Positions 14,980 to 63,846 of a DNA stretch of 64,000 nt are shown here, in pieces. Under the pieces are notes generated by a model that was given only the letters and a program-made list of their open reading frames with translations, had not been told where the DNA came from and did not search any database. The stretch's first letter is position 1, and each line of letters starts with the position of its first letter. The position numbers and the translations under genes are program-made. The stretch lies in NCBI RefSeq assembly GCF_003751085.1, contig NZ_RJJY01000002.1:2480001-2544000 (forward strand), read 5' to 3'. The DNA is from Micromonospora sp. Llam0 (lineage in GTDB: Bacteria > Actinomycetota > Actinomycetes > Mycobacteriales > Micromonosporaceae).

Positions 14980-15543
14980 CTACCGGGACGCGGTGGTCAG
15001 CGCGGGCATCGGGATCTCGAAGTGCACGACCCGGGAGGCGTGCGGGCTGCCGTCGCGGGGGTCGTGCACCACGTCGGCCACGCTCCGCCAGAACGCCTCT
15101 GCGCCGGGGACGCCGGTGTCGGTGTGCAGGTAGACCGCCTGGTAGCCGGGTTGCCCGGCGGCGAACGCGACGGCCCGTCGGACCAGTGCGCGGGCGAGCC
15201 CGTTGCGGCGGTGTTCCGGGCGTACGTAGACCCGGAACAGCTGGGCGGTGCTCGCCGCCGGGTAGCGGTCGACCAGCCATCGGGGATGCGGCGGGCTGTT
15301 CGGCGCGGCGGCGCGGACGGCGGTGGTGGCGACCACCTCGTCGCCCTTGACCGCGACGAACAGCGCATTCCGCGCAGGCCGTAGGTAGGTGCCGGCGAGG
15401 TCGATGACGTCGGCGTGCCACTGCGGCTGGTAGCCGTAGCCGAACACCTGGTAGAAGGTGTCGAGCATGACGCTACGGGCACCGTCGAGGTGCTGCGGCG
15501 TGGCGGTACGGATGTCGTACGGGCCGATGTTCTGGTCGTTCAC
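14980..15543 (-). CDS. GNAT-family N-acetyltransferase, last gene of the metallophore-like operon
   Basis: The protein has 187 residues with the GNAT core: VYVRPEHRRNGLARALVRRA is the acetyl-CoA binding motif A (RxxGxA). The GTG start at 15543 overlaps the ABC ATPase stop by 4 nt (GTGA), so it belongs to the same translation unit. It could acetylate the small molecule made by this operon or detoxify an intermediate; the substrate is unknown. It converges on the mannose-6-phosphate isomerase gene across 67 bp, where a 15-bp direct repeat (14905-14919 and 14938-14952) is the only notable sequence. Confidence 0.8.
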   Translation of the reverse strand: MNDQNIGPYDIRTATPQHLDGARSVMLDTFYQVFGYGYQPQWHADVIDLAGTYLRPARNALFVAVKGDEVVATTAVRAAAPNSPPHPRWLVDRYPAASTAQLFRVYVRPEHRRNGLARALVRRAVAFAAGQPGYQAVYLHTDTGVPGAEAFWRSVADVVHDPRDGSPHASRVVHFEIPMPALTTASR

Positions 15544-17177
15544 GTGGTGCTCATCTCTCCGGTGCTGGACGTGGTTGCGGGTCGTGGCAGATGTCGCGGC
15601 AGGTCGGGGTCGCGCGGTCGCGGCAGGTCAGGGTCGAGAAGGGCACGGGTCAGCGGTTGCCGGCCGGCGGTCAGCAGGGTGGCGGCGGGACCGTGTTCGA
15701 TGCCCCGGCCGTCGTCGAGCACGGTGACGTGGTCGGCGAGCCGGTCGACCACGTCCGGGTCGTGCGTGATGACCAGCAGCGCGAGCCGGTGGGTGCGGCA
15801 CAGTTCGTCGAGCAGGCCGAGGATCCGGTCCTGGTTGGCGTGGTCGAGACCGGACGTGATCTCATCGCAGACCAGCAGCCGGGGTCGGGCCACCAGGGCG
15901 CGGGCGAGAGCGGCGCGTTGCAGTTCACCGCCGGAGAGCCGGTTGGGTCGGCGGGCGGCGAGAGCATCACCGATCCCGACCTGACGCAGCAGGTCGTGGG
16001 CGGTCCGCAGCGCGTCGGTGGTCGGTTGGCGGTGCAGCCGTACGGCGGGGCGGGCAACCTGGTCGAGCAGGGCGGCGTACGGCTGGAAACTGGCCCGTGG
16101 GTCCTGGAAGACGTACTGCACGGCGGCGAGGTCGGCCCGCTGCCGGCGGTCGATCGAGCAGGCGAGCCGGCGGCCGTCGAGTTCGATACTGCCGCCGCTG
16201 GGCGGGTGCAGGCCGGCCAGGCACCGGGCGACGGTGGTCTTTCCGCTGCCGGAGCGGCCGACCAGGGCGAGGCGCTGGCCGGGGCCGATGACCATGTCGA
16301 TGTCGTGCAGCACGGTGCGGCCGTGGTGCGCCGCGGTGAGCCCGGTGACCCGCAGCAGCTGGCCGGCACCGTCCGCCCGGTCGGCGGTCTGGGTTGACTG
16401 TGGCCTGTCGGTGATAACAGTCGACTGTGGTTGGTCGGTCGGGGTCGGCGCTGGCCGGGCCGGGCCGGTGTGGTCGAGGACCGTGTCCGGCGGACCGGAG
16501 GCGACGACGGTGCCCCGGTCGAGCACGAGAGTGCTGTCGGCGACCGCCCGGGCCAGGTGCAGGTCGTGGGTGAGCAGGACGACCGCGACGCCGGTGGCGG
16601 CGAGACCGCGCAGTTCGGTGGCGACGTCGCGGCGGTTGAGGCTGTCCTGCCCGGTGGTCGGTTCGTCGGCGACCAGGACGCGGGCACCGGCCAGCAGGGC
16701 GTGCGCGATGACCAGCCGCTGCTGCTGGCCGCCGGAGAGTTGGTGCGGGTAGCGCCGCAGCAGGTCGCGGTCGTCCGGCAGGCCGACCCGGGCCAGCACC
16801 GCCCGGACCGCCTGCCGGATGGCCGCGCGCCGCGTCCGGCGCGACGGTGCCGGGGTGTGCCGGCGGGCGATCTCGCGCAGCACCGGGCCGATCCGGCGTA
16901 CCGGGGTCAGCGCCGCCGCCGGTTGCTGCGGAATGTAGCCGACGGTGCTGCCAGCCGGCGGCATGTCGGGGGTGACCGGGCGACCGTCGATCTCGATGTC
17001 GCCGGTGAGCCGGACGCCGGGGCCGGCTTCGCCGAGCAGCGCCCGCCCGAGCGTGGTCTTGCCGCTGCCGGACGGACCGACGACGGCGAGGACGTCGCCG
17101 GCCGGCACGGCGCACGACACGTCGCGCAGCAGCCGCTGTCCACCGGCATCGGCGCACAGCCCGTCGACCCGGATCAC
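15540..17177 (-). CDS. Opp/Nik-type ABC transporter ATPase, two fused nucleotide-binding domains
   Basis: The protein has 545 residues and two complete ATPase domains. The first has GPSGSGKTT (34-42), LSGGQQQR and VLVADEPTTG; the second has GRSGSGKTT, LSGGELQR and LLVCDEITSGLD. A Thr/Asp/Gln-rich linker joins them (about 260-290). This is a DppD-DppF or NikD-NikE fusion that drives one importer with the two permeases upstream. The GTG at 17177 overlaps the permease stop by 4 nt; the longer frame up to 18044 is a shadow of that permease gene. Its role is import of a peptide-like or metal-chelate substrate. Confidence 0.9.
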   Translation of the reverse strand: MIRVDGLCADAGGQRLLRDVSCAVPAGDVLAVVGPSGSGKTTLGRALLGEAGPGVRLTGDIEIDGRPVTPDMPPAGSTVGYIPQQPAAALTPVRRIGPVLREIARRHTPAPSRRTRRAAIRQAVRAVLARVGLPDDRDLLRRYPHQLSGGQQQRLVIAHALLAGARVLVADEPTTGQDSLNRRDVATELRGLAATGVAVVLLTHDLHLARAVADSTLVLDRGTVVASGPPDTVLDHTGPARPAPTPTDQPQSTVITDRPQSTQTADRADGAGQLLRVTGLTAAHHGRTVLHDIDMVIGPGQRLALVGRSGSGKTTVARCLAGLHPPSGGSIELDGRRLACSIDRRQRADLAAVQYVFQDPRASFQPYAALLDQVARPAVRLHRQPTTDALRTAHDLLRQVGIGDALAARRPNRLSGGELQRAALARALVARPRLLVCDEITSGLDHANQDRILGLLDELCRTHRLALLVITHDPDVVDRLADHVTVLDDGRGIEHGPAATLLTAGRQPLTRALLDPDLPRPRDPDLPRHLPRPATTSSTGEMSTT

Positions 17178-18037
17178 TTCGCGACCTTCGGTCGGGCGGC
17201 CAGCAGCTGGTCGGTGACCAGGTTGACCCCGACGGCGAGCGCGACGAGCAGCGCGGCGGGCACCACGACCGCCCACGGCTGCAGGAAGATCCCGGCGCGG
17301 TTGCGGTCGACCATGACGGCCCAGTCGGCGGCGTCCGGGGCGACGCCGATGCCCAGGAAACTGGCGGTGGCGACCAGGTAGACGGCGCCGATGAACCGGA
17401 CCCCGGCGTCGGCGAGCAGGACCCGGCGGATGTCCCGGGCGACGTACCCGACCGCCCGCCGCCACCATGTCTCCCGGTAGAGCCGCATCGCTTCCATCGC
17501 GGGCCCGTGGGCCAGCGGCAGGGCCGCGGCGCGGGTGATCCGGGCGATCTCCGGCAGGGCGATGACGGCGACGATGACCACCAGTGTCACCGGCCCCCGG
17601 GGTGCGGTGGCGGCGAGCAGGATGAGCAGCAGCAGCGACGGGACGGCGAGGAGCAGGTCCAGCGGGCGCATCAGCACCTCGTCGAGCCAGCGACGGCGGG
17701 TGAGGGCGGCGAGCAGACCGACGGGTACGCCGACCAGGTAGGCCAGGGCGGTCGCGGCTGCGGCGACCGCGACGACGGACCGGCCGCCGAGCAGGATCTG
17801 CCCGGTGACGTCCCGGCCGACGAAGTCGGTGCCGAGCAGCCCAGCCTGGTCGAACGGCCGGGTCCGGTCCGCGCCGTCGCCGACCAGGGCCAGATCGACC
17901 AGGGCCGGACCGGCGAGAGCGAGCAGCAGCGGTACGGCGAGCAGGACGACCCCGGTGACCAGGCGCGGAACCCGGCCGGTCCGCCGAGCCTGGCTGGTCG
18001 TCGGAACCCGGCCGGTCGTCGGAACCCGGCTGATCAT
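17174..18037 (-). CDS. ABC transporter permease, DppC/NikC-like
   Basis: The protein has 287 residues. After a short polar N-terminus it shows one hydrophobic helix, the family motif LLGTDFVGRDVTGQILLGG, then about five more helices with the ATPase-docking loop around HGPAMEAMRLYRETWW. The ATG at 18037 overlaps the stop of the partner permease (ATGA). Longer frames upstream are antisense-like and rejected. It forms the membrane channel with the DppB-like subunit encoded upstream. Confidence 0.9.
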   Translation of the reverse strand: MISRVPTTGRVPTTSQARRTGRVPRLVTGVVLLAVPLLLALAGPALVDLALVGDGADRTRPFDQAGLLGTDFVGRDVTGQILLGGRSVVAVAAAATALAYLVGVPVGLLAALTRRRWLDEVLMRPLDLLLAVPSLLLLILLAATAPRGPVTLVVIVAVIALPEIARITRAAALPLAHGPAMEAMRLYRETWWRRAVGYVARDIRRVLLADAGVRFIGAVYLVATASFLGIGVAPDAADWAVMVDRNRAGIFLQPWAVVVPAALLVALAVGVNLVTDQLLAARPKVAK

Positions 18038-18984
18038 CGGGCACCGGCCGTGCGCGGGGCGAGCCGGAACGCGACCAGGTCGGCGACCAGGTTGACGACC
18101 ACGGTGGTGACCGCCACGATCACGCACAGCCCTTGGACGGTGGGGACGTCCCGGGCGGCGACCGCGTCGACCAGCGCGGTGCCCAGACCGGGGATGACGA
18201 AGACCGCCTCGACGACGATGACGCCGCCGAGCAGCCAGTCGGTGGTACGGGCGAGCTGCTGCACGACCGGCGCGGCGGCGGTGGGCAGTGCGTGGGCCAG
18301 CCACCGCCGACCGGCACCGAGGCCGAGCCGGCGGGCGTGGGCGACGTACTCGGACCGTAGCGCGTCGACCATGCCGGCGCGGGTCAGCCGGCTGAGTGAG
18401 CAGATCGGTCGGGCCAGCAGCACCAGCAGCGGCAGGACCAGCACGGCCGGCTGGGCGAGCAGGTTGGGGCCGGTGCCGACGGCGGTCGGCGGAAACCAGC
18501 CCAGCTGTACGCCGAAGACCGCGACCAGCAGGATGGCCAGGGCGAACTCCGGCACCGCGTAGAGACCCACGGCGACGGCGCTGATGGCGCGGTCGAGCCG
18601 GCCGCCTTCGCGCCAGGCGGCGAGCATGCCGAGGCCGATCGCGAGCGGGACCAGGACGAGCAGCGTCGCGCCGGCCAGCAGTACGGTCGCGGCGGCGCTG
18701 CCGACGATCATGTCCAGGACCGGCCGTTGAGAGATCAGCGAGACGCCGAAGTCTCCGTGCAGCAGCCCGGCGAGCCAGTCGAGGTACCGCTGCCAGGGCG
18801 GCTGGTCGAGGTCGAGCTGTTCGCGGATCAGCGCGATCCGCTCCGGGTCGGGCTGGTCACCGGCAATCACCACCGCCGCGTCGCCGGGCAACGCCTCGGT
18901 GAGCACGAACACGATGGTGGTGATGCCGGCGACCTGCCCGACGCCGAGCAGTAGCCGCCGTACGGTGTAGCGGGCCAGGCTCAA
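18034..18984 (-). CDS. ABC transporter permease, DppB/NikB-like
   Basis: The protein has 316 residues with six membrane helices. It begins SLARYTVRRLLLGVGQVAG, typical of DppB, has a large periplasmic loop with GDFGVSLISQRPVLDMI, and a C-terminal docking loop (RSEYVAHARRLGL). The start is a TTG at 18984 that overlaps the stop of the binding-protein gene by 4 nt (TTGA); no ATG fits. It pairs with the DppC-like permease in the importer. Confidence 0.9.
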   Translation of the reverse strand: MSLARYTVRRLLLGVGQVAGITTIVFVLTEALPGDAAVVIAGDQPDPERIALIREQLDLDQPPWQRYLDWLAGLLHGDFGVSLISQRPVLDMIVGSAAATVLLAGATLLVLVPLAIGLGMLAAWREGGRLDRAISAVAVGLYAVPEFALAILLVAVFGVQLGWFPPTAVGTGPNLLAQPAVLVLPLLVLLARPICSLSRLTRAGMVDALRSEYVAHARRLGLGAGRRWLAHALPTAAAPVVQQLARTTDWLLGGVIVVEAVFVIPGLGTALVDAVAARDVPTVQGLCVIVAVTTVVVNLVADLVAFRLAPRTAGAR

Positions 18985-20543
18985 GCCAGCCACACCTTGT
19001 CGAAGCGGGCCCAGTCGAGGGTGTTGGCGGGTGCTTCGGCGGACACGCCGCCGACCTGGGGCGCGGTGGCGACGAGGAAGTCGGCGAAGCCCCACACCAG
19101 CAGCCCGCCCTCGGCGTGCAGCATCCGCTGCATCTCGCCGTACGCCTGCCGCCGGCCCGCTTCGTCGGCGCTGGACACGGCGGTGGCGTAGAGGTCGTCG
19201 AACTCGGGCCGCATCCACTTGGTGGCGTTTGTCGTGGAGGTGCTCAGCAACCGCTGCGAGATGTGGGTCTCGATCGGCATGGCGCCGGAGCGGAAGCAGG
19301 CCATGACTCCGTTGTCGAGCACCTCCCGCCAGTAGGTGTCCTTGTTGCGCTGCACCGGTTCGACGTTCAGCCCGACCGCGCGGGCCTGGTCGGCGAAGAC
19401 GCTGGCCGCTTCGACGAACCCGGCGGCCACCGGCGCGGTGTCCAGCGGGATCCGCAGGCCGCTTGCGCCGGCCCGGTCGATGAGCGAGCGGGCGCGGTCG
19501 AGGTCGGGTTCGCGCTGCGGGATGTCGTCGGCGTAGTACTGGTAGCCCTTGCCGAACAGGTCGTTGCCGACCTGCCCGGATCCGGACAGGACCGTCTCGA
19601 CCAGTTGCTGCCGGTCGGTGAGCAGGAACATCGCCTCCCGTAGGTCCCGGTTGTCGAACGGGGGGCGGTCCAGCTTCATGGTGAAGCCCTGCAGGCCGCT
19701 GTTGGCCATCCGGGTGATGGCGATCCGGTCGTCGGCGGCGTAGCTGCGGGCCGTGGTGGGGCTGATGTCGTGCGCGTACTCGACCTGCCCGGCGAGCAGC
19801 GCGTTGACCCGCGCCGACTCCTCGTTGGCGATCACGTACTCCAGCTCGTCGAGGTGTGCGGCGCCGTCCCAGTAGTCCGGGTACCGGGCCAGCAGCAGCG
19901 ACGTACCGGGGGTGAAGCTGCTGACGGTGAACGGCCCGGAGCCGATCGGCTGGTCGAACGACTCGCTGCCCTCGGGCACGATGTACGCGCCGAACGCGGC
20001 GAGCACGTTGCCGAACTCGGCGAACGGACGGGTCAGCGCGAATTCGACCGTACGGTCGTCGACGGCCCGGCTCGCCCGCAGATCGATCAGGGACAGGCTG
20101 GCCTTGGCGCGGAAGGCCCGGTCCGGGTCGGTGATCCGGGCGTAGCTGGCCAGTACGTCGGCAGCCCGCACCGGCCGGCCGTCGTGGAAGGTCGCCTCCC
20201 GCAGCGGCACCCGCCAGCGGGTGAGGTCGGCGTTGGGCTCCCAGCTCAGTGCGAGCCGGGGCTGGATCGACACGTCCGGGCCGTAGTCGGCGAGCTTGTC
20301 GAAGATCGCCTTGGCCCGGGACGCCTCGTTGAACAGGTTCGCCAGGTGCGGGTCGAGGCTCTCGGCGGCACCGCCACCGGCGAACGCGACCCGCAGCCGG
20401 CCGCCCCGCTTCGGGGTGGCGGAACCTGCGGCGTTGTCGGAACCAGCGGGAGCGTCGGCACCGCAACCGGCGAGCAGCGCGGCGGTCACGGCGGCACCGC
20501 CGCCGAGCAATGTTCGGCGGCGTAGTCGGGCAGCAGTCGACAT
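18981..20543 (-). CDS. ABC transporter substrate-binding lipoprotein, family 5 (OppA/NikA/CntA-like)
   Basis: The protein has 520 residues. The signal has a twin-arginine-like RRRTLLGG and a lipobox (LLAGC, Cys about 27). The remainder is a family 5 solute-binding protein, which binds peptides, nickel chelates or metallophores. GGAAGGAAAG precedes the ATG. The gene follows the methyltransferase gene after 40 bp, the only real gap in the operon, so it may have its own ribosome entry for higher output. Given its neighbours I infer that it captures the metal-loaded product of the upstream biosynthetic genes. Peptide uptake is the main alternative. Confidence 0.88.
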   Translation of the reverse strand: MSTAARLRRRTLLGGGAAVTAALLAGCGADAPAGSDNAAGSATPKRGGRLRVAFAGGGAAESLDPHLANLFNEASRAKAIFDKLADYGPDVSIQPRLALSWEPNADLTRWRVPLREATFHDGRPVRAADVLASYARITDPDRAFRAKASLSLIDLRASRAVDDRTVEFALTRPFAEFGNVLAAFGAYIVPEGSESFDQPIGSGPFTVSSFTPGTSLLLARYPDYWDGAAHLDELEYVIANEESARVNALLAGQVEYAHDISPTTARSYAADDRIAITRMANSGLQGFTMKLDRPPFDNRDLREAMFLLTDRQQLVETVLSGSGQVGNDLFGKGYQYYADDIPQREPDLDRARSLIDRAGASGLRIPLDTAPVAAGFVEAASVFADQARAVGLNVEPVQRNKDTYWREVLDNGVMACFRSGAMPIETHISQRLLSTSTTNATKWMRPEFDDLYATAVSSADEAGRRQAYGEMQRMLHAEGGLLVWGFADFLVATAPQVGGVSAEAPANTLDWARFDKVWLA

Positions 20544-20583
20544 GTCAGTTCTTTCCTTCCAGCGGGGATTCTCAGCGGGGATG

Positions 20584-21435
20584 TCAGGCCGCGTCGTCGC
20601 GGCGGCGGGCGACCAGGTGCAGGCGGTCGCCGCCTAGGCCGGTCGCCAGCTCGGCGCCGGGATGCCAGGGCGGTTCGGTACGCGGGCCGGGGGAGTCGAA
20701 CAGGGCGAGGACGTCGAACCCGGCGTGGTCCAGCAGGTGGCGCAACTCCTGCGGGAAGAGCAGCCGCCACGCGGAGGTCCGCACCAGCGCCTGCTCGGCA
20801 CCCGGCCAGGTCCACACCCGACGGCGACGTAGCAGCTGCGCGGCGGCGTCGATCCACAAGGTGGTACGGGACGTGTAGGTGACGCCCTGCCAGCGCACCG
20901 ACCGGATGCTGGGCCCGTCGAGCAGGTCGGTGTTGCCGAGGAAGTACGCGCCGTTGCGCATCTCGGCGACGAGCAGCCCACCGGGGGCCAGTTGCCGCCG
21001 GCAGTTGGCCAGCGCGGCGGCCAGGTCGGCGTTGTCGTGGCAGTACAGCAGGGCACTGTCCAGGCAGGTGATCACGTCGAAGTGGCCGCCGAGGGCGAAG
21101 GTACGCAGATCACCCTCGACGAACCGGACCCGCCGGTGGCGGCGGCGGGCGTAGGCCAGCATCCGGGCGGACAGGTCCAACCCGGTGACGTCGTAGCCGA
21201 CGCCGGCGAGGTACCCGGCGTCGCGGCCGGTGCCGCAGCCGAGGTCGAGCAGCCGCCGGCCGGGCGGGCCGGGCGCGAACCGGTCGACCAGGTCGGCCAC
21301 GAACCTCGCCGCCCGGTGCTGCGGGTCGGGGAACTGGGCCTCGTACAGCTGCGGGTTGTCGGTGAGCAGGTTGCCGCCCGCCACCACCGGTCCACCCGTG
21401 ACCACCGGTCCGCCTTCGACCACCGGCTCGCTCAC
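20584..21435 (-). CDS. Class I SAM-dependent methyltransferase in metallophore-like operon
   Basis: The protein has 283 residues. The SAM site motif RRLLDLGCGTGRDAGYLA lies at about 60-77 and is followed by VTGLDLSARML, VEGDLRTF and FDVITCLDSALLY. The N-terminal Gly/Val-rich stretch is unusual and low in complexity. The GTG at 21435 overlaps the stop of the MFS gene by 4 nt. It probably N- or O-methylates the small molecule made by this operon; the target is unknown. Confidence 0.85.
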   Translation of the reverse strand: MSEPVVEGGPVVTGGPVVAGGNLLTDNPQLYEAQFPDPQHRAARFVADLVDRFAPGPPGRRLLDLGCGTGRDAGYLAGVGYDVTGLDLSARMLAYARRRHRRVRFVEGDLRTFALGGHFDVITCLDSALLYCHDNADLAAALANCRRQLAPGGLLVAEMRNGAYFLGNTDLLDGPSIRSVRWQGVTYTSRTTLWIDAAAQLLRRRRVWTWPGAEQALVRTSAWRLLFPQELRHLLDHAGFDVLALFDSPGPRTEPPWHPGAELATGLGGDRLHLVARRRDDAA

Positions 21436-22694
21436 CGGGCCGCCTTTCCGGCGGCGGCCGGCACCGCACGTGGGGCGAGCAGGCCCCGGCGGTGCAGCGC
21501 CCACACGGCGGCGCCGGAGGCCAGGCCAAGCCCGGCGCAGAGCAGCCACGCCCCGGCGGGTACGCCCGGCGCCGCCCCGTCCGGCTGGCCACCGGTCTGC
21601 ATGAACCGGCCGACGGCGGTGGTGGCCAGCGCCGCTACGACCCCGGAGGCCAGGTAGAACACCCCGAAGTAGGTGCCGGTCAGCCCGTCGCGGGCAAAGC
21701 CGGGCACCAGTTCCAGCACGAACGGCTGCGCCATCATCACCCCGACCGCCAGCGCCAGCGCGGCGGCCAGCGTCGGCAGCGCCCGCACCGGAGGCGGGCC
21801 GGTCACCGGCAGCAGCGGCAGCAGGAAACCGAGACCGGCCACCGCCATCCCGGCCGCGATGGACACTCCACGGCTGTGCCGCTGGCGCAGCCACCCGGTC
21901 AGCCGCACCTGCCAGCCGAGGGTGACCACCGTGGACACGACGAAGAGTGTCGCCACCGCCAGCGCGGTGCCGGCGGCGGCCTCGGCCTGCACCGGCAGCA
22001 CCAGGTAGAGCTGGGTCTGCAGGGCGAACAGCGCGCTCAACGCCACCGTGAATGCCAGGAACCGTCCGTCGGTCAGGGCCTCCCGCCAGTCCCGGCCGAC
22101 GCTCTGCCCGCTGCGGGTCACCGGATGCGGCGGCAGCACCAGCAGCTGCGCAACGGTCAGCGCGGCGAACACCACCGTCGCGCCGATCGCGGCGGCCCGG
22201 AAGTCGACCAGCAGCAGCGCGCTGCCGAGCAGCGGACCGAGCAGCGCACCCGCGCTGGCGAAGACGTTGAACAGGGCGAACGCCTCGGCCCGGCGCTCGG
22301 GTGCGGCCTGGGCGAGGTAGGCGCGTACCGCCGGGTTGAACAGCGCCCCGGCCAGCCCGGTCAGCACCGAGGCGGCCAGCAGCGCGGGCAGCGACCCGCC
22401 GACCGCGAACACCGCGAAGCCGACCGCCCGCAGCCCGCATCCGGCGATGATCACGCCGCGGGCGCCGAGCCGGTCGGCGGCCGACCCGCCGACCAGGAAC
22501 AGCCCCTGCTGGCTCAGGTTGCGCACGCCGAGGACCAGGCCGACCAGGGTGGCCGACAGGCCGATGTCGTCGCGCAGGTAGCCGGCCAGGTAGGGCAGCA
22601 GCATGTAGAAGCCGACGTTGACCCCGAGCTGGTTGACCACCAGCAGCCGGATCGCCGGCGGGAAACTGGTCAGCGTCGTCCAGGTCGCCCTCAC
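21432..22694 (-). CDS. MFS efflux transporter, probable exporter of the operon's product
   Basis: The protein has 420 residues and about 12 hydrophobic helices. A major-facilitator motif A variant (GGSAADRLGARGVI) follows helix 2. The GTG at 22694 overlaps the stop of the epimerase gene (GTGA). Transporters of this kind export siderophores and staphylopine-like metallophores (for example CntE), and the placement between biosynthetic genes and a dedicated importer supports that role here by inference. Drug efflux is an alternative. Confidence 0.85.
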   Translation of the reverse strand: MRATWTTLTSFPPAIRLLVVNQLGVNVGFYMLLPYLAGYLRDDIGLSATLVGLVLGVRNLSQQGLFLVGGSAADRLGARGVIIAGCGLRAVGFAVFAVGGSLPALLAASVLTGLAGALFNPAVRAYLAQAAPERRAEAFALFNVFASAGALLGPLLGSALLLVDFRAAAIGATVVFAALTVAQLLVLPPHPVTRSGQSVGRDWREALTDGRFLAFTVALSALFALQTQLYLVLPVQAEAAAGTALAVATLFVVSTVVTLGWQVRLTGWLRQRHSRGVSIAAGMAVAGLGFLLPLLPVTGPPPVRALPTLAAALALAVGVMMAQPFVLELVPGFARDGLTGTYFGVFYLASGVVAALATTAVGRFMQTGGQPDGAAPGVPAGAWLLCAGLGLASGAAVWALHRRGLLAPRAVPAAAGKAAR

Positions 22695-23764
22695 CGCGCC
22701 GCCTCCGCCGTGCCGGGCCGGTCCGCCTCCGCCAGGCCGGATCCGGTCGTCTCCGTCGGCGTCACGCCGAGCCCGGGGGTGTCCGCCAGGCGCAGCACGC
22801 CGTCGTGGCCGCCGATCCCGGTCCACGGGTCGTCGGCGACCAGCAGGTGCCCGTCCAGGTCGACCCAGCGGGCGAGGCCGGCCAGGTGCACGGCCGGTGC
22901 GACGCCGAGTGTGCTGGCGACCAGGCAGCCGAGCATGATGTCCAGGCCGCGTTCCCGGGCCGCGTCGGCGATCCGGGTGGCGGCGGCGATCCCGCCGCAC
23001 TTGGCCAGCTTGATGTTGACCCCGGCGACCGCGCCGGTGAGCCGGTCCAGGTCGGCCAGGCGCTCGGCGTCCTCGTCGGCGACGACCGGGACCGCGGTGC
23101 GGGCGGCCACCCGGGCCAGCAGGTCGGGCCGTCCCGGCGGGATCGGCTGCTCGACGGCGTCGATCCGGTACGGGGTGAGCGCGTCGAGCCGCCGGACCGC
23201 CTGCTCGGCGGACCAGCCGCCGTTGGGGTCGAGCAGCAGCCGGGCCGTCGGGGCCTCCGCGCGTACCGCCGCCACCCGGGCCACGTCGGCGTCGTCACCG
23301 GCTTTCACCTTCAGCACCGCGAACCCGGCGGCGACCAGCCGCCGCGCGGTCGCCGCCGCGTCCGCGACCGGCACCAGCCCGATCGTGTACGCCGTGGCGA
23401 CCGGCGTGGGCGCCGGCGCTGCCAGCAGTCGGTGCACCGGCAGCCCTCGGGCCTGGCCGAGCAGGTCGTGCACGGCGGTGTCCAGCGCCGCGAGCACCCC
23501 GGCGGGACCGTCGAACGTGCTCAGCTCGTCGCGCAACGCCGCCGGATCCGCACAGCCGGCGAGCCGGCCGGTCCAGCCGGCACAGGTACGTTCGATCGCC
23601 GCCCGGTCGAGTCCGTAGTAGCCGCTGGTGACGACCTCGCCGTGGCCGGTGAGCCCGTCGCGGGTGACGGTGAGCCGGACCGCTTCGCGGTGCGCCATCA
23701 CCGACCGGGAGATCCGCAGCGGTTCGCGCAGCACCAGCCGGTAGGAGTGCCAGGACAGTTTCAT
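22691..23764 (-). CDS. Enolase-superfamily dipeptide epimerase-like enzyme (MLE subgroup)
   Basis: The protein has 357 residues. All catalytic elements of the muconate-lactonizing-enzyme subgroup can be read: the KxK pair (K152, K154 in LKVKAG), metal ligands D179 (LLLDPNGG), E205 (DAVEQP) and D230 (VVADED), and the opposite base Lys in NIKLAKCGG (K252 or K255). Relatives epimerise L-Ala-Glu type dipeptides or cycloisomerise acids. Next to an ATP-grasp ligase it could invert a stereocentre in a dipeptide-like product. The ATG overlaps the preceding stop (ATGA). Specificity cannot be read from the sequence. Confidence 0.85.
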   Translation of the reverse strand: MKLSWHSYRLVLREPLRISRSVMAHREAVRLTVTRDGLTGHGEVVTSGYYGLDRAAIERTCAGWTGRLAGCADPAALRDELSTFDGPAGVLAALDTAVHDLLGQARGLPVHRLLAAPAPTPVATAYTIGLVPVADAAATARRLVAAGFAVLKVKAGDDADVARVAAVRAEAPTARLLLDPNGGWSAEQAVRRLDALTPYRIDAVEQPIPPGRPDLLARVAARTAVPVVADEDAERLADLDRLTGAVAGVNIKLAKCGGIAAATRIADAARERGLDIMLGCLVASTLGVAPAVHLAGLARWVDLDGHLLVADDPWTGIGGHDGVLRLADTPGLGVTPTETTGSGLAEADRPGTAEAAR

Positions 23765-24813
23765 GCCGGCACCCGCTCGTGGCGCAGCGGGTCGCCGACC
23801 ACCCGGCAGCGGCTCCACCGGGTGACCTCCACCGCACCGGGGTGCGGTATCTCGACCGGATGGCCCGGGGTGGGGCCGAGCAGGCCGTGCCGGACGCACC
23901 AGCCGTCGTCGAAGATGGAGTCGAGGTAGCGGTGCGGGCCGTCCGGGAAGACCGCCAGCACCCGGGTGTCCGGCTGGGTGCGGGCCACCCAGGCGGCCAC
24001 CCTGGCGACCGCGCCGGTGGACCACCCGCCGGTGACGAACGCCGTACGGGCCAGCCGTCGGCAGGTGTCCACCGCCTCCGCCGGGCCCAGCCAGTGCACC
24101 TCGTCGAACGCCGGATAGTCCACGTTGTCCGGGTAGATGCTGCTGCCCAGCCCGCGCATCACCCGCCGCCGGGCCGGCTGGCCGAAGATCGTCGAACCGA
24201 TGGTGTCCACGCCGATCATGCGCAGCTGCGGCCAGTGCCGGCGTAACGTCCGGGCCAGCCCGGCGCTGTGCCCGCCGGTGCCGACGCTGCAGACCAGCAC
24301 GTCGACCGCGTCGACCTGGGCGGCGATCTCGTCACCGAGGCTCGCGTACCCGGCGACGTTGTCGGGGTTGTGGTACTGGTCCGGCCAGTACGCGCCGGGC
24401 AGCGTCGCCAGCACCTGCGTCAGCCGTTCCCGGCGGGCCTGCTGCCAGCCACCTGTCGGGTGGGGCCGGTCGACCACCTCCAGCCGGGCCCCGTACGCGC
24501 GCAGCAGCGCCCGCATCGACGGCTCCAGCTCCCGGTCGACGACCAGCACCACCGGGTGGCCGAGGGCCTGCCCGGCGAACACCAGCCCGATGCCGAGGGT
24601 GCCGCTGGTCGACTCCACCACCGGTGCGCCGTCGCGGAGCTCGCCGCGCCGCCGCGCGCCGGCCAGCATCGCCACCGCCGCGCGGGCCTTCATCCCGCCC
24701 GGTGCGGCGGACTCGACCTTCGCCCAGAAGCCGCCGTGCGGGTGCGGCAGCGGCGCGTCGACGTAGATCAGCGGGGTGTGTCCCAGCAGGTTCAGCAGCT
24801 GCGGCGCGCTCAC
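23761..24813 (-). CDS. PLP-dependent cysteine-synthase-like enzyme (SbnA-like)
   Basis: The protein has 350 residues of the fold-type II PLP family. The Schiff-base Lys is K42 (APGGMKARAA), the substrate loop is STSGTLG (68-74, usual STSGNTG) and the PLP-phosphate loop is SVGTGGHSAGL. In siderophore pathways such enzymes (SbnA) replace the side chain of O-phosphoserine to build 2,3-diaminopropionate precursors. No SbnB partner is present here, so the product may differ. The GTG at 24813 overlaps the DUF364 gene stop by 4 nt. Plain cysteine synthase is less likely given the changed loop and context. Confidence 0.85.
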   Translation of the reverse strand: MSAPQLLNLLGHTPLIYVDAPLPHPHGGFWAKVESAAPGGMKARAAVAMLAGARRRGELRDGAPVVESTSGTLGIGLVFAGQALGHPVVLVVDRELEPSMRALLRAYGARLEVVDRPHPTGGWQQARRERLTQVLATLPGAYWPDQYHNPDNVAGYASLGDEIAAQVDAVDVLVCSVGTGGHSAGLARTLRRHWPQLRMIGVDTIGSTIFGQPARRRVMRGLGSSIYPDNVDYPAFDEVHWLGPAEAVDTCRRLARTAFVTGGWSTGAVARVAAWVARTQPDTRVLAVFPDGPHRYLDSIFDDGWCVRHGLLGPTPGHPVEIPHPGAVEVTRWSRCRVVGDPLRHERVPA

Positions 24814-25691
24814 CCGGACACCCCGTACCGGTAAAGGGTCGTCGGGCCGCCGTCGAGCCAGAAGAACGGGTACGGTTCGGCCGACACCGCCGTCAGCCCG
24901 GTGCCGAGGAACCACGGCAGCACCGCGCTGCCGGTCTGTGCGAACGCCACGAACGGCTTGCCCTCGGCGGCGGCGTGGGCAAGCAGCGGCTCGAAGGTGC
25001 CGTTGCCGAGCGTCATCCCCGAGGCGAGGATCGCGTCGCAGCGGTCCAGCAGCGCCGCCGCGTCGGGCAGACACGGCTCGTCCCATTCGGTGTGGCCGCC
25101 GGCCAGGTCGCACGGCAGGTACCGCCGGTCGGCGGCGCGGAGCCGGGCCAGCAGCGAGTTCACCACCCCGACGACCAGGACCGGGCCGCTGGTCGGCGGC
25201 AGCAGGTCGACCACGGCGGCGGCCCGGGCCTGCGACTTGGCCAGCGAGCTGCCGGCGGGCACGGTGACCACCGTGTCGGCCGCCTCGGCGTGCGGGCGCT
25301 GCGCCATCAGGTACGCGTCCAGCGCGGCCACCCGCACCGGCAGCAGCGGATGCGCGAGCAGATCGGTGACCGAGGCGCCGACGCAGTCGTAGACGACCTC
25401 GTCGGGCAGCTCGCCGGGCTCGATCGCGCAGGAGCCGACCGCCGCGTCGACCCGCAGACTCAGCACCTGGTTGCGGTAGCTGCGCAGCCGGGTCGCGTGC
25501 CGGGCGCCCTGCCTGGTCACGAACCCGACGCTGACCTGGCAGCGGGTCGGGTCCACGCCGTGCCGTCCGGCCCGTACCGCGTCGATCAGTGCGGCGAGGG
25601 ACGGGTACGCCGGCCGGGTCGGCGATACGGGCGCGGCCGGACGGGCCGACGATAGGGATGCCGCCGGGGTGCTGTCGGTGGACGCCGTCAT
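24810..25691 (-). CDS. DUF364 (PF04016) protein, putative heavy-metal chelation
   Basis: The protein has 293 residues. The C-terminal half matches the DUF364 Rossmann-like domain: SSLAKSQARAAAVVDLLP, ASGMTLGNGTFEPLL and FAQTGSAVLPWFLGTGL. The N-terminal part (about 30-130) corresponds to the enolase-N-like DUF4213 region. The first solved member, Dhaf_4260, was proposed to act in heavy-metal chelation. The ATG overlaps the ATP-grasp gene stop by 4 nt. The biochemical reaction is unknown. Its position as second gene of a biosynthesis-transport operon suggests a direct role in making the product or loading it with metal. Confidence 0.82.
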   Translation of the reverse strand: MTASTDSTPAASLSSARPAAPVSPTRPAYPSLAALIDAVRAGRHGVDPTRCQVSVGFVTRQGARHATRLRSYRNQVLSLRVDAAVGSCAIEPGELPDEVVYDCVGASVTDLLAHPLLPVRVAALDAYLMAQRPHAEAADTVVTVPAGSSLAKSQARAAAVVDLLPPTSGPVLVVGVVNSLLARLRAADRRYLPCDLAGGHTEWDEPCLPDAAALLDRCDAILASGMTLGNGTFEPLLAHAAAEGKPFVAFAQTGSAVLPWFLGTGLTAVSAEPYPFFWLDGGPTTLYRYGVSG

Positions 25692-26998
25692 ACCACCGCT
25701 CCGGCCGGCGCGGCGGCGGACCGGTGCCGGTCGGTGCTGCCGCCGTCGTCGACGTACCCGACCCGTACCTGTGCGGCCAGGCCGTCAGCGATGGTCCGCG
25801 CGCCGGGCCCGGCCGTGTCGACCACCATCACGTGGCCCAGGTAGTCGTTGTTGCTGCTGCTGTCCCCGGCCCGGTGGCCGGCGGGTTTCACCGACCAGTC
25901 GACGACCCGTGGGTCGGTCTGCCAGGCCCCGGTTCCGTCGACCCGGGCGATGACACCGGGGCGCGGCGGCAGCACGAACGCGATCGCGGCGCTGCGTACG
26001 CCGGTGTCGGCGGGTGCGAGGTCGGCGGTCTCGCCGAGCGCCAGCTGCGCGTACACCATGGGCAGGTCGATGCCGGTGACCCGGCGCACCAGCTCGGTGA
26101 TCTGGTTGCCGGCCGGCCGGGGGTTGACCTCGACCACCCGGGGCCCGGCCGGGGTCAGCCGCAGCTCGGTGTGGGCGACGCCGCGGTCCAGCCCGACCGC
26201 CGCCAGCGCGGCCACCGCCACCTCACTGGCCCGGCGGGTGGTCGCCGGGTCGAGCAGCGCCGGAAACATGTGGCCGGTCTCGACGAACCCCGAGGCGCCG
26301 CCGAGGCTCTTGTCGGTCACTCCGACGACCGTCGTGTGCCCGTCCACGGCGACCGTCTCCACGCTCACCTCCGGGCCGGACAGCAGCTCCTCCAGCAGCA
26401 CCGTCGGCACCCGGGGCTGGTGTCGGGCGTTGACCGGGAACCCGGCGAGGGCGTCGAACGCCGCTCGCAGCCCGGCCTCGTCGGCGACTTCGCGCACGTA
26501 CATGCCGGCGCAGAGGTCGACCGGTTTGACCACCAGCGGGAATCCCAGCTCCTGAGCGGCCTGCGAGATTTCGGACCAGCTCCACGCGAGCGCATACCGG
26601 GGTTGCGGCACGCCGGCTGCCTCCATCGCCGCCCGGGCGAGGTCCTTGCGGTACGCCCGCCGCACGGCCGCCGGGTCGGTGCCCGGCAGACCCAGGTGGG
26701 CGGCCAGCTGGGCGGCGGTGTCGAGGTAGTAGTCGCAGGAGGTGAGTACGCCGTCGAAGCGCAGCGCCCGGTGCAGCTGTTCCGCGTGCTCCAGCAGAGC
26801 GGGCAGGTCGTTGGTCTCGGCGGTCAGCACGTTGTGGGCGGCGAGCAGCGGATGCGCGCCCCCGGCCGGCGCGCTGCGCAGGTAGTGGTGCAGGTCGCGG
26901 GTCAGGAAGGAGAACCGGTGCCCGGCCTCCAGCACCGCCCTGGGCAGCAGATGCGCCATCGCACCGACCCAGCTCTCCACCAGCAACACATGCGCCAT
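25688..26998 (-). CDS. ATP-grasp ligase, first gene of the metallophore-like operon
   Basis: The protein has 436 residues. An N-terminal pre-ATP-grasp Rossmann domain (MAHVLLVESW start) leads to the ATP-grasp fold with GFPLVVKPVDL for the nucleotide, LLEELLSGPEVSVETVAVDG and the magnesium motif VVEVNPRPAGNQ. Such enzymes form an amide between a carboxyl-phosphate and an amine. GAGGAGG, 6 nt before the ATG at 26998, rules out the upstream ATG of the longer frame. The Fur/Zur-like palindrome at 27031-27047 lies 33 bp upstream. It probably joins two amino-acid units of a small metal-binding product; the substrates are unknown. Confidence 0.88.
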   Translation of the reverse strand: MAHVLLVESWVGAMAHLLPRAVLEAGHRFSFLTRDLHHYLRSAPAGGAHPLLAAHNVLTAETNDLPALLEHAEQLHRALRFDGVLTSCDYYLDTAAQLAAHLGLPGTDPAAVRRAYRKDLARAAMEAAGVPQPRYALAWSWSEISQAAQELGFPLVVKPVDLCAGMYVREVADEAGLRAAFDALAGFPVNARHQPRVPTVLLEELLSGPEVSVETVAVDGHTTVVGVTDKSLGGASGFVETGHMFPALLDPATTRRASEVAVAALAAVGLDRGVAHTELRLTPAGPRVVEVNPRPAGNQITELVRRVTGIDLPMVYAQLALGETADLAPADTGVRSAAIAFVLPPRPGVIARVDGTGAWQTDPRVVDWSVKPAGHRAGDSSSNNDYLGHVMVVDTAGPGARTIADGLAAQVRVGYVDDGGSTDRHRSAAAPAGAVV

Positions 26999-27030
26999 CG
27001 ACGCCTCCTCGCTCGGCAACCGGCATGGTG

Positions 27031-27047
27031 ATGATAACGGTTATCGT
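27031..27047. promoter_or_regulatory. Fur/Zur-family-like operator upstream of the ATP-grasp operon
   Basis: GATAAC-G-GTTATC (27033-27045) is a perfect 6-1-6 inverted repeat, 7-1-7 with one mismatch when flanks are counted, inside an AT-rich patch in otherwise GC-rich DNA. Size and form fit Fur-superfamily boxes (Zur, Fur). They do not fit the IdeR/DmdR iron box or the nickel-dependent Nur site known from Streptomyces. It overlaps the expected promoter of the operon that starts at 26998. Confidence 0.6.
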
Positions 27048-30310: not shown

Positions 30311-31973
30311 GCAATGCCACGTAGCCTAGGTTGATCTTGATGGTGGCTGGACCCGATGGATGTGGATGGTCGGTGGACGCTGGTGGCGGATGCTGGCCGG
30401 TTCGTGGGGTTTCTTGACCCGGTACTGGTTGTGGCGGGCGCGTTTGACCGCGCGGGGGCAGGTGCGTTCGCGTCGGGTGGGGATCAGGAGAGCGGCGATC
30501 CGGGCGAGGTGGGTCGGTAGCTGGTCAGCCCAGTCCTGAGGGGGGAATGTCCGCCGTGCCGGTGGCGGTGCGGCGGATCAGGCGCAGGGCTCTGGTGAAG
30601 GAGATCCTGTCCGGATCGAGGTCGGCGGCGGCGGACGCTTTCGCTGTCAGCGCGCTGATCGCGTGGTGGACGATCAGGTAGGCCCAGATCTCCTGATGGG
30701 CCAGGTCCGGCAGACGGGACCGCAGCACCCGTCCGGGACCACGGAGGTGGGTTTTGAGCTGGTCGTTGGCGGTTTCCTCCTCCCACCGCTCGTGGTAGCC
30801 GCCAGCTAGTTCGTCGGCGTGGGCGTCGGCGGGGTCGACGATGGTGGTGATCAGGGCGATCAACTCGCCGGTGCCGTCGCCGACGCGGTCGGGAATGTCG
30901 TACTCGACCACCCGGGCGAGGTGGACGACCGGCAGGCCCCGGTCGTCGAACGCGTCGGGAACGCTGTTGATGTCGGTCAGGTCAGCTCCGGCGCGGGCGG
31001 CCGCGAGCAGTCGTTCCCGTCGACCGCCACGGACGGTCGGTTTGATCAGGACGGTGAGATAGGTGCCGTCGGACAGGATCTTGACCACGGGCAGGTCGAG
31101 CTGGGTCGGGGCCCGCCACAGCAGCGCGGCGCCGGTCGCGGCGGCGGTGTCCCACGCCTGCCAGGAGTAGAACCCCCGGTCGGCGGTGAGTAGTTCGTCG
31201 GACCGTAGCCGTGGGTACAGCCGCTGCGCGAGGGTCTTCTCCCCTTCCGGGTAGGCGCCGATCTCGGCGGCGACGAAGGCGTGGGTGCCGCACTCCGCGA
31301 GGGCCACGACCCGGGCCTTCGGAAACGCGGAACGGTTCCCCCCTGACCCGGCGTAGCCGAACTCGGCCGCGTTGGCCGTGCTGTCGGGCACATCGACGGT
31401 GAACCCGTCGATCGCCAGCAGCCGCCACCGGCGTAGGAACGACCCCCGCGCGGTCCCCAACGCGCCCGCCGGCGCTGTCGGGCCCGCCTCGCCCGCGACC
31501 GGCCCGCACGTGCGCTCGAACAGCTCGGCGAACACCCGGCGGCCCAACCGTTTCCGCGCCTGGCTGATGGCACTCGAGGTCGGCACGCTCCACGCCGCGT
31601 CCCAGCACCCGAACCGGTCCAACGACCCGGTGACCCTGGTCGCGACCTCGGTGTAGTCATCGTCGGGGAACAACGCCAACCCCAACGTCAGGTAGGTGCT
31701 CACGTGCGCCGGCAGTTTCCCGTCCGACCGCTGCTCCCGCACCCCGCACACCTCGATCGCGGCGTCGACCTCCTCCCGCGACACCTGCGAGATCAGCACC
31801 CCGAGCGTCACCTGATCCGGCCGTACCACTGGACGGTCCACCACATCCACCGACATGACCCGTGATCAAAACAGTCAGCCGAGCCGTGGTCGTCCCGCCA
31901 CGCCGCACCGCCCAGGAGTCCACATCAAACCCGCAGGTCAAACCCAAGATCAACTTAGGCTACGTGGCATTGC
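30311..31973. mobile_element. Complete IS4-family insertion sequence with target duplication
   Basis: The element of about 1.66 kb has terminal inverted repeats of 29 bp (30311-30339 and 31945-31973) with one mismatch, beginning GCAATGCCACGTAGCC. The direct repeat ACCAAGCC lies immediately outside both ends (30303-30310 and 31974-31981); with one end base ambiguous the duplication is CACCAAGCC, 9 bp, in the range known for IS4-type elements. One intact transposase gene fills it. The left 185 bp (30340-30524) between terminal repeat and transposase stop hold no gene. Intact ends, duplication and gene suggest a fairly recent insertion. Confidence 0.92.
30525..31856 (-). CDS. IS4-family DDE transposase
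   Basis: The protein has 443 residues. The catalytic acids are visible: the first Asp in LLAIDGFTVDVPD, the second in LTADRGFYS, and the Glu in the signature Y-(2)-R-(3)-E-(6)-K read as YHERWEEETANDQLK. That signature defines IS4-type transposases. An N-terminal DUF4372-like helical region precedes it (about 10-100). The frame is intact, so the enzyme is probably active. It starts at an ATG about 90 bp inside the right terminal repeat. Confidence 0.95.
   Translation of the reverse strand: MSVDVVDRPVVRPDQVTLGVLISQVSREEVDAAIEVCGVREQRSDGKLPAHVSTYLTLGLALFPDDDYTEVATRVTGSLDRFGCWDAAWSVPTSSAISQARKRLGRRVFAELFERTCGPVAGEAGPTAPAGALGTARGSFLRRWRLLAIDGFTVDVPDSTANAAEFGYAGSGGNRSAFPKARVVALAECGTHAFVAAEIGAYPEGEKTLAQRLYPRLRSDELLTADRGFYSWQAWDTAAATGAALLWRAPTQLDLPVVKILSDGTYLTVLIKPTVRGGRRERLLAAARAGADLTDINSVPDAFDDRGLPVVHLARVVEYDIPDRVGDGTGELIALITTIVDPADAHADELAGGYHERWEEETANDQLKTHLRGPGRVLRSRLPDLAHQEIWAYLIVHHAISALTAKASAAADLDPDRISFTRALRLIRRTATGTADIPPSGLG

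Positions 31974-59481: not shown

Positions 59482-59485
<4 letters not shown>
58937..59485 (-). CDS. Response regulator with receiver domain and coiled-coil tail
   Basis: The protein has 182 residues. The receiver domain (about 5-125) has the acidic pair DD (12-13), phospho-acceptor D56 (VILLDAQMPEMDGFE) and Lys in YLIKPFDPWVLRAK. A helical, charged tail (about 130-182) has no DNA-binding or enzyme domain. The ATG overlaps the stop of the hybrid kinase gene by 4 nt, so it is most likely phosphorylated by that kinase and passes the signal by protein contact. Confidence 0.92.

Positions 59486-63846
<4,361 letters not shown>

Follow-up and report, generated by a model that had tools for sequence, protein, structure and literature searches.

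The genome of the actinomycete Micromonospora sp. Llam0 carries, in the 64,000-nucleotide stretch analysed here (contig NZ_RJJY01000002.1, positions 2,480,001 to 2,544,000; the window), an eleven-gene operon that is very probably a Zur-repressed zincophore system, whose products would make a small zinc chelator, export it and take it up again. The best reading of the comparison with related sequences is that the operon belongs to a family of zincophore systems that dispense with non-ribosomal peptide synthetase (NRPS) and share, as their core, a DUF364 protein and an SbnA-like enzyme of the pyridoxal-phosphate-dependent (PLP) type. None of the open-access papers listed by the literature searches describes such a system.

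The operon lies on the minus strand at 14980-26998 of the window. Each of its 11 open reading frames (ORFs) contains a terminal stop only, and adjacent genes overlap by 4 bases, the sole exception being a 40-base gap ahead of the binding-protein gene. Ten of the 11 proteins were scanned against Pfam and NCBIfam; the second permease, outside that scan, is named from synteny. An earlier note on this DNA had described eleven co-directional genes with a box in front; all of the ORFs are confirmed, and the families of the ten scanned proteins agree with those it had named. The features are listed below, with the number of related loci (out of 80, see below) that contain the gene.

27031..27047, minus strand: predicted Zur-like box, ATGATAACGGTTATCGT on the plus strand, 32 bases ahead of the likely start of the ATP-grasp gene.
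25688..26998, minus strand: ATP-grasp protein resembling L-amino-acid ligases, with LAL_C2 (Pfam/NCBIfam; 80/80 loci).
24810..25691, minus strand: DUF364 protein, probably an enzyme of metallophore biosynthesis (Pfam).
23761..24813, minus strand: SbnA-like PLP enzyme, PALP (NCBIfam, structure relatives, motifs).
22691..23764, minus strand: dipeptide-epimerase-like enzyme of the enolase superfamily, MR_MLE (Pfam/NCBIfam, catalytic residues).
21432..22694, minus strand: exporter of the major facilitator superfamily (MFS) (Pfam/NCBIfam; 76/80 loci).
20584..21435, minus strand: S-adenosylmethionine (SAM)-dependent methyltransferase (Pfam/NCBIfam; 72/80 loci).
18981..20543, minus strand: family-5 substrate-binding protein, SBP_bac_5, a lipoprotein by eye from its N-terminus (Pfam/NCBIfam; 74/80 loci).
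18034..18984, minus strand: Opp-type permease 1, BPD permease (Pfam/NCBIfam; 74/80 loci).
17174..18037, minus strand: Opp-type permease 2 (synteny with an annotated permease subunit; 75/80 loci).
15540..17177, minus strand: fused double ATPase of the importer (two ABC_tran stretches; 76/80 loci).
14980..15543, minus strand: GNAT acetyltransferase, accessory (Pfam; 47/80 loci).

The box ahead of the ATP-grasp gene, a 17-base near-palindrome, looks like a Zur (zinc) box of the kind found in promoters of Zur regulons. A search of the same genome at up to 3 mismatches returns 15 matches at 14 places (the palindromic box of the window counts on both strands) and none for a reversed-pattern control. 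Seven of the 13 other places were inspected, and four of these point to zinc. The 1-mismatch copy is located 55 bases ahead of a TIGR03772 gene (anchored-repeat ABC binding protein; 784.9 bits against a cut-off of 350.45), in whose score list zinc- and manganese-binding proteins come next, and another stands upstream of a surface-protein gene that adjoins this transporter. A further copy is placed directly upstream of a Fur-family gene, the product of which has 3mwm, 7vo0 and 2o03 as its top solved relatives (E from 4.1e-42 for 3mwm to 9.9e-42 for 2o03, with the next match at 9e-17); 2o03 is named as a zinc uptake regulation protein, and 3mwm is the Zur protein of Streptomyces coelicolor. This structure comparison covers one Fur-family protein of the genome (L017/L024); by eye the genome has three that are Zur-like (L015, L016 and L017), L016 and L017 being nearly alike. 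Another copy of the box precedes the MRF/ZigA-matching part of a GTPase, whose family scores are under their cut-offs.

The operon is kept as a unit across many genera of actinomycetes. One genome per species was searched with a DUF364 alignment, 304 matches were confirmed, and the best 80 loci, chosen by DUF364 alone and hence skewed to close relatives, were kept; gene calls in them are heuristic, and genes or starts can be missed. All 80 are titled as actinomycetes (Micromonospora, Actinoplanes, Streptoalloteichus, Lentzea, Saccharothrix, Saccharopolyspora, Streptomyces, Kitasatospora, Nonomuraea, a Frankia and others). The ATP-grasp, DUF364 and PLP genes are present in every one and the epimerase gene in 79, with the exporter, methyltransferase and importer genes at the frequencies listed above. 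Nine genes, five of the core (ATP-grasp, DUF364, PLP, epimerase, MFS) and four of the importer, share one order and one strand in 73 of these loci. The least constant gene is that of GNAT, which lies on the operon strand in 30 loci and on the other strand in 17. The same layout, with no annotated GNAT, recurs on plasmid records of Streptomyces angustmyceticus and Rhodococcus sp. ZPP, the fourth gene of both being annotated 'dipeptide epimerase'; the gene table of the S. angustmyceticus record is incomplete and does not list the second permease. Co-conservation of the block with the importer had been proposed in the earlier note as a check, a scattered block being the outcome that would have told against it; the block is not scattered. 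Identities of the nine genes track the pairwise identities of DUF364 (r 0.87-0.94, 56 loci), which fits joint inheritance, yet plain descent would give the same. A related alpha/beta hydrolase gene is found in 21 of the 80 loci (e.g., L030 6979-8460, whose product matches TAP-like proteins); in the twelve loci listed it lies on the minus strand and adjoins the ATP-grasp gene.

The regulatory signal is kept along with the genes. The core of the actinobacterial Zur motif published in PMC5472717 (as given in the available part of that paper) was sought from -250 to +20 of each gene. With up to 2 mismatches it stands ahead of the ATP-grasp gene in 69 of 78 loci; ahead of nine other operon genes it is seen in 0-2 of 71-80 loci apiece, and single-base shuffles give 1.5%. 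The ChIP-derived motif, likewise from the available part of PMC5472717, is found at the same stringency ahead of ATP-grasp in 54 of 78 loci and ahead of the others in 0-8. What had been called a Fur/Zur-like box can thus be narrowed to the Zur side, with zinc the likely metal, on the evidence of the boxes in the same genome and of these motif statistics.

Nor does the system stand alone: it forms a single branch of a broader DUF364/SbnA-like family, in which clusters of other builds occur. An even draw of the class finds the DUF364 group in 30 of 394 genomes. Among the 29 loci fetched besides that of the window, nine are of the window type (ten with the window) and 20 are built differently; every one of the latter has an SbnA-like enzyme, while a FecCD-type importer, a GHMP kinase and the methyltransferase occur in 15 each and a labelled MFS gene in 16. 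One locus (L127) combines an Opp-type importer, 45-52% identical to that of the window, with a PhyH dioxygenase gene. The PLP gene is called in eight of the nine window-type loci; the caller missed it in L139, yet L043, which appears to be the same contig, contains one. Plasmids of Streptomyces melanogenes, Streptomyces sp. SGAir0924 and Tsukamurella tyrosinosolvens encode DUF364 proteins 38-42% identical to that of the window, together with an SbnA-like enzyme that shares 29-30% identity with the one in the window, an MFS exporter and an ABC importer of the iron-siderophore type (FecCD and Peripla_BP_2 by Pfam in S. melanogenes, the one of the three that was scanned); both Streptomyces clusters have an annotated GHMP kinase. 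Each of the three has a Zur-like site with 1-2 mismatches in a promoter gap, and a few other 2-mismatch sites occur elsewhere in these stretches. A gene of the Streptomyces globosus plasmid (L110, 6368-11098) that is annotated as a PLP-dependent enzyme also holds an ATP-grasp match; it adjoins a lyase-family protein and a kinase and lies between NRPS genes.

Zur motifs lead the clusters of this wider family as well. With up to 2 mismatches, the motif precedes a leading cluster gene in 24 of the 29 loci (18 of the 20 differently built and 6 of the 9 window-type), and with up to 1 mismatch in 21. Gene by gene, a motif with 0-1 mismatch stands ahead of 39 of 78 leading genes of the clusters and of none of 139 other leading genes; with up to 2 mismatches the figures are 46 of 78 and 3 of 139. 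A motif shared by a divergent pair is counted twice, and the control genes exclude those that adjoin the cluster. The cluster of L141 adjoins genes for the ribosomal-protein paralogues S18, L28 and S14, with 0, 1 and 0 cysteines, and an MRF-like GTPase gene (under cut-off), with four perfect Zur motifs in the gaps. By gene content this neighbourhood resembles the ribosomal and GTPase genes that the available part of PMC6103462 lists as part of Zur regulons.

The enzymes fit a product like a dipeptide, as the earlier note had supposed: the ATP-grasp protein has L-amino-acid ligases as its nearest solved relatives and the epimerase residues of the enolase-superfamily protein are kept. The ATP-grasp gene probably starts at 26998; its product contains an LAL_C2 domain (53 bits against a Pfam cut-off of 29.4), which places it with the L-amino-acid ligases, and is closest in structure to one of these, 3vot, with BacD also among its relatives. 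The enolase-superfamily protein retains K152, K154, D179, E205, D230, K252 and D302-L-D304, that is, the KxK, D, E, D, K catalytic set with the DxD motif that marks dipeptide epimerases. It reaches no NCBIfam epimerase cut-off, and its top NCBIfam score is for the N-acetyl-D-Glu racemase DgcA (235.8 bits, under the cut-off of 400); its syntenic counterparts in L105 and L106 carry the annotation 'dipeptide epimerase'. The PLP enzyme scores 251.6 bits with TIGR03945, under the cut-off of 349.95, has SbnA of staphyloferrin B (PDB 5d84) as its closest solved structure and retains the catalytic Lys42, with GGMKAR and SGTLG where SbnA has GGSMKDR and SGNLG. The DUF364 protein matches PF04016 at 29 bits (Pfam cut-off 23), has the fold of the family and is 14% identical to Dhaf4260 (3l5o). 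Of the transport proteins, the double ATPase has NikD/NikE- and CntD/CntF-like NCBIfam scores, and it, the binding protein and the first permease all score against nickel-transporter families, in every case under the cut-offs; the solved relatives of the binding protein are nickel-, AgaA- and peptide-binding, and include 3t66 (nickel) and 6hlx (AgaA).

These identities permit a mechanism to be proposed, all of which, apart from what the genes are and how they are predicted to be regulated, is inferred. When zinc runs short, Zur would leave the box at 27031-27047, allowing transcription of the entire operon. The SbnA-like enzyme, by analogy with SbnA and with the synthase of aspergillomarasmine A (AMA), would couple a serine-derived acceptor, either O-phosphoserine or O-acetylserine, with the amine of a second amino acid to give an aminopolycarboxylate. 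The DUF364 protein would act next, or on the same intermediate, in a step that is likely to be essential to the chelator, since DUF364 and the PLP enzyme are common to all 20 differently built clusters, where they are accompanied by a kinase, by a methyltransferase or by both. The ATP-grasp ligase would then add an amino acid through an amide bond, the epimerase-like enzyme invert one centre and the methyltransferase methylate the product; the MFS protein would export the chelator, and the importer, made up of the binding protein, both permeases and the fused ATPase, would recover it loaded with zinc. A broader proposition is held with less assurance, if on balance favoured: that DUF364 and the divergent SbnA-like enzyme are central to a large class of actinomycete zincophores that has yet to be described, in which DUF364 is the chelator-forming enzyme, in place of the nicotianamine synthase and opine dehydrogenase of the staphylopine family, and to which lineages have added ATP-grasp and epimerase with Opp, GHMP kinase with FecCD, or PhyH dioxygenase with Opp.

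Among known systems, the staphylopine-type (Cnt) opine zincophores, which are metal-controlled, are alike in having few enzymes, no NRPS and an exporter and importer of their own. According to the available part of PMC7438024, their clusters use importers of Opp or FecCD type, and those with a histidine racemase mostly combine MFS and Opp-type transport. The operon differs from them in its DUF364, SbnA-like, ATP-grasp and epimerase-like enzymes, and the defining Cnt enzymes are unmatched among its ten scanned proteins. The same ten give no match to nicotianamine-synthase-like, opine-dehydrogenase or NRPS families (Pfam) or to SbnB (Pfam/NCBIfam), as the earlier note had said of the operon; a whole-genome search with PF10100 gave no match, but its controls gave none either. 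One correction concerns the genome as a whole, which does encode an SbnB above the cut-off: it lies on another contig, in a cluster of NRPS/PKS appearance by eye (L146, C1:4566500-4586300) that has its own SbnA-SbnB pair. The PLP enzyme of the operon is set apart from its nearest solved relative by the missed TIGR03945 cut-off, the altered motifs and the missing SbnB partner; the precedent for the proposed reaction is AMA synthase, which by the available description (PMC8319579) makes a tight zinc chelator alone from O-phosphoserine and Asp. The aminopolycarboxylic-acid chelators ethylenediamine-disuccinic acid (EDDS) and ethylenediaminesuccinic acid hydroxyarginine (EDHA) come from aes clusters of actinomycetes; the available parts of PMC9252823, PMC6103462 and PMC10702961 describe EDDS as zinc-repressed through Zur and EDHA as independent of NRPS, the latter made by a four-gene, iron-responsive operon aesA-D (PMC10702961). 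By description, the one basis of this comparison, the likeness lies in the actinomycete host and, for EDDS, in zinc and Zur, and the operon may be a cousin of these clusters. Coelibactin of S. coelicolor has a Zur-controlled zincophore cluster (PMC5472717, available part) and is described as a non-ribosomal peptide (PMC3430247, available part), whereas the ten scanned operon proteins give no NRPS match. The structurally known DUF364 protein Dhaf4260 is distant, the DUF364 of the window being tied instead to an SbnA-like enzyme, an exporter and Zur motifs.

Staphylopine carries several metals, and it is conceivable, if rather doubtful, that the product of the operon is a metallophore of broad spectrum or one for mainly nickel, cobalt or iron that is merely controlled by Zur. 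The sub-threshold nickel-transporter scores and the 3t66 and 6hlx relatives of the binding protein lean that way; the promoter motifs, matching those of Zur-type genes of the same genome, lean toward zinc, and no match to an iron-box-like consensus is present in the five loci scanned, L105-L109. An ATP-grasp ligase with an exporter is also the recipe for a dipeptide antibiotic, and BacD is among the relatives of the ligase; that the operon makes a secreted dipeptide-type antimetabolite or a metal-withholding weapon, its Opp importer serving for recapture or self-protection, is nonetheless quite unlikely, given the binding protein in 74 of 80 loci, the Zur motifs and the FecCD-type importers of the sister clusters.

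The two remaining alternatives are slightly less probable still. One is salvage of peptides or D-amino acids, incidentally expressed in zinc starvation, with an importer for ordinary peptides. Family-5 binding proteins do bind mostly peptides, and DgcA heads the score list of the enolase; the ten scanned proteins include no peptidase match, and exporter, ligase and SbnA-like synthase look anabolic. The other, synthesis of a zinc buffer or cofactor for use inside the cell, beside transporters for other compounds, draws on a proposal in the available part of PMC2954201 that DUF364 acts on flavin or pterin derivatives; against it, exporter and importer lie within the same block in most loci, and the DUF364-PLP pair persists while the type of importer varies.

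The zincophore reading has to accommodate several observations that weigh against it. All of the Zur boxes are predictions; three of the seven inspected places in the genome offer no pointer to zinc, those of L004 and L013 having no plausible gene start nearby and that of L014 falling on the start of a binding-protein gene; the GTPase box lies inside the called ORF, upstream of the family-matching part only. The ChIP-derived motif separates less well, standing ahead of the second permease in 8 of 73 loci and of the ATPase in 3 of 76. Five of the 29 fetched loci have no motif within 2 mismatches in the tested stretch: L137 and L138 have sites with 0 and 1 mismatches beyond it, the sites of L115 and L139 carry three, and L140 is truncated at the end of its contig. 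Opp-type importers carry mostly peptides, and four of the 29 loci have no importer next door in stretches of 12-20 kb. The binding protein is absent from six of the 80 loci; a run of N covers its site in L025, and the other five (L027, L040, L055, L078 and L086) have no gap to explain it. Finally, a route through diaminopropionate in trans may operate, given the SbnB elsewhere in the genome. In L086 (Nonomuraea) permease and ATPase matches come straight after the PLP match, the intervening genes missing as if by deletion.

Elsewhere in the window, an IS4-type transposase gene (30525-31856) lies ~3.5 kb upstream of the operon. The product of 12706-13953 matches the ADP-specific phosphofructokinase/glucokinase family (97 bits against 27), ADP-dependent kinases being familiar chiefly from archaea; its gene adjoins a class-II aldolase gene downstream of a sugar-type binding-protein gene. 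At 59482-63846 a hybrid histidine kinase of 1454 residues is encoded, with many weak HAMP repeats and GAF, kinase and receiver domains.

The operon would offer a compact set of enzymes that is open to direct test. Zinc influences differentiation and antibiotic production in Streptomyces (PMC5472717, available part), and natural chelators of the metal, AMA among them, attract interest as a means to counter metallo-beta-lactamases (PMC8319579, available part). If the interpretation of the operon as a zincophore system is correct, it would give a function to DUF364, an enzyme family of unassigned role, and would add a class of zincophores beyond the mining of non-ribosomal peptide metallophores, which, judged from the available part of one such study (PMC12971057), is not designed to find it.

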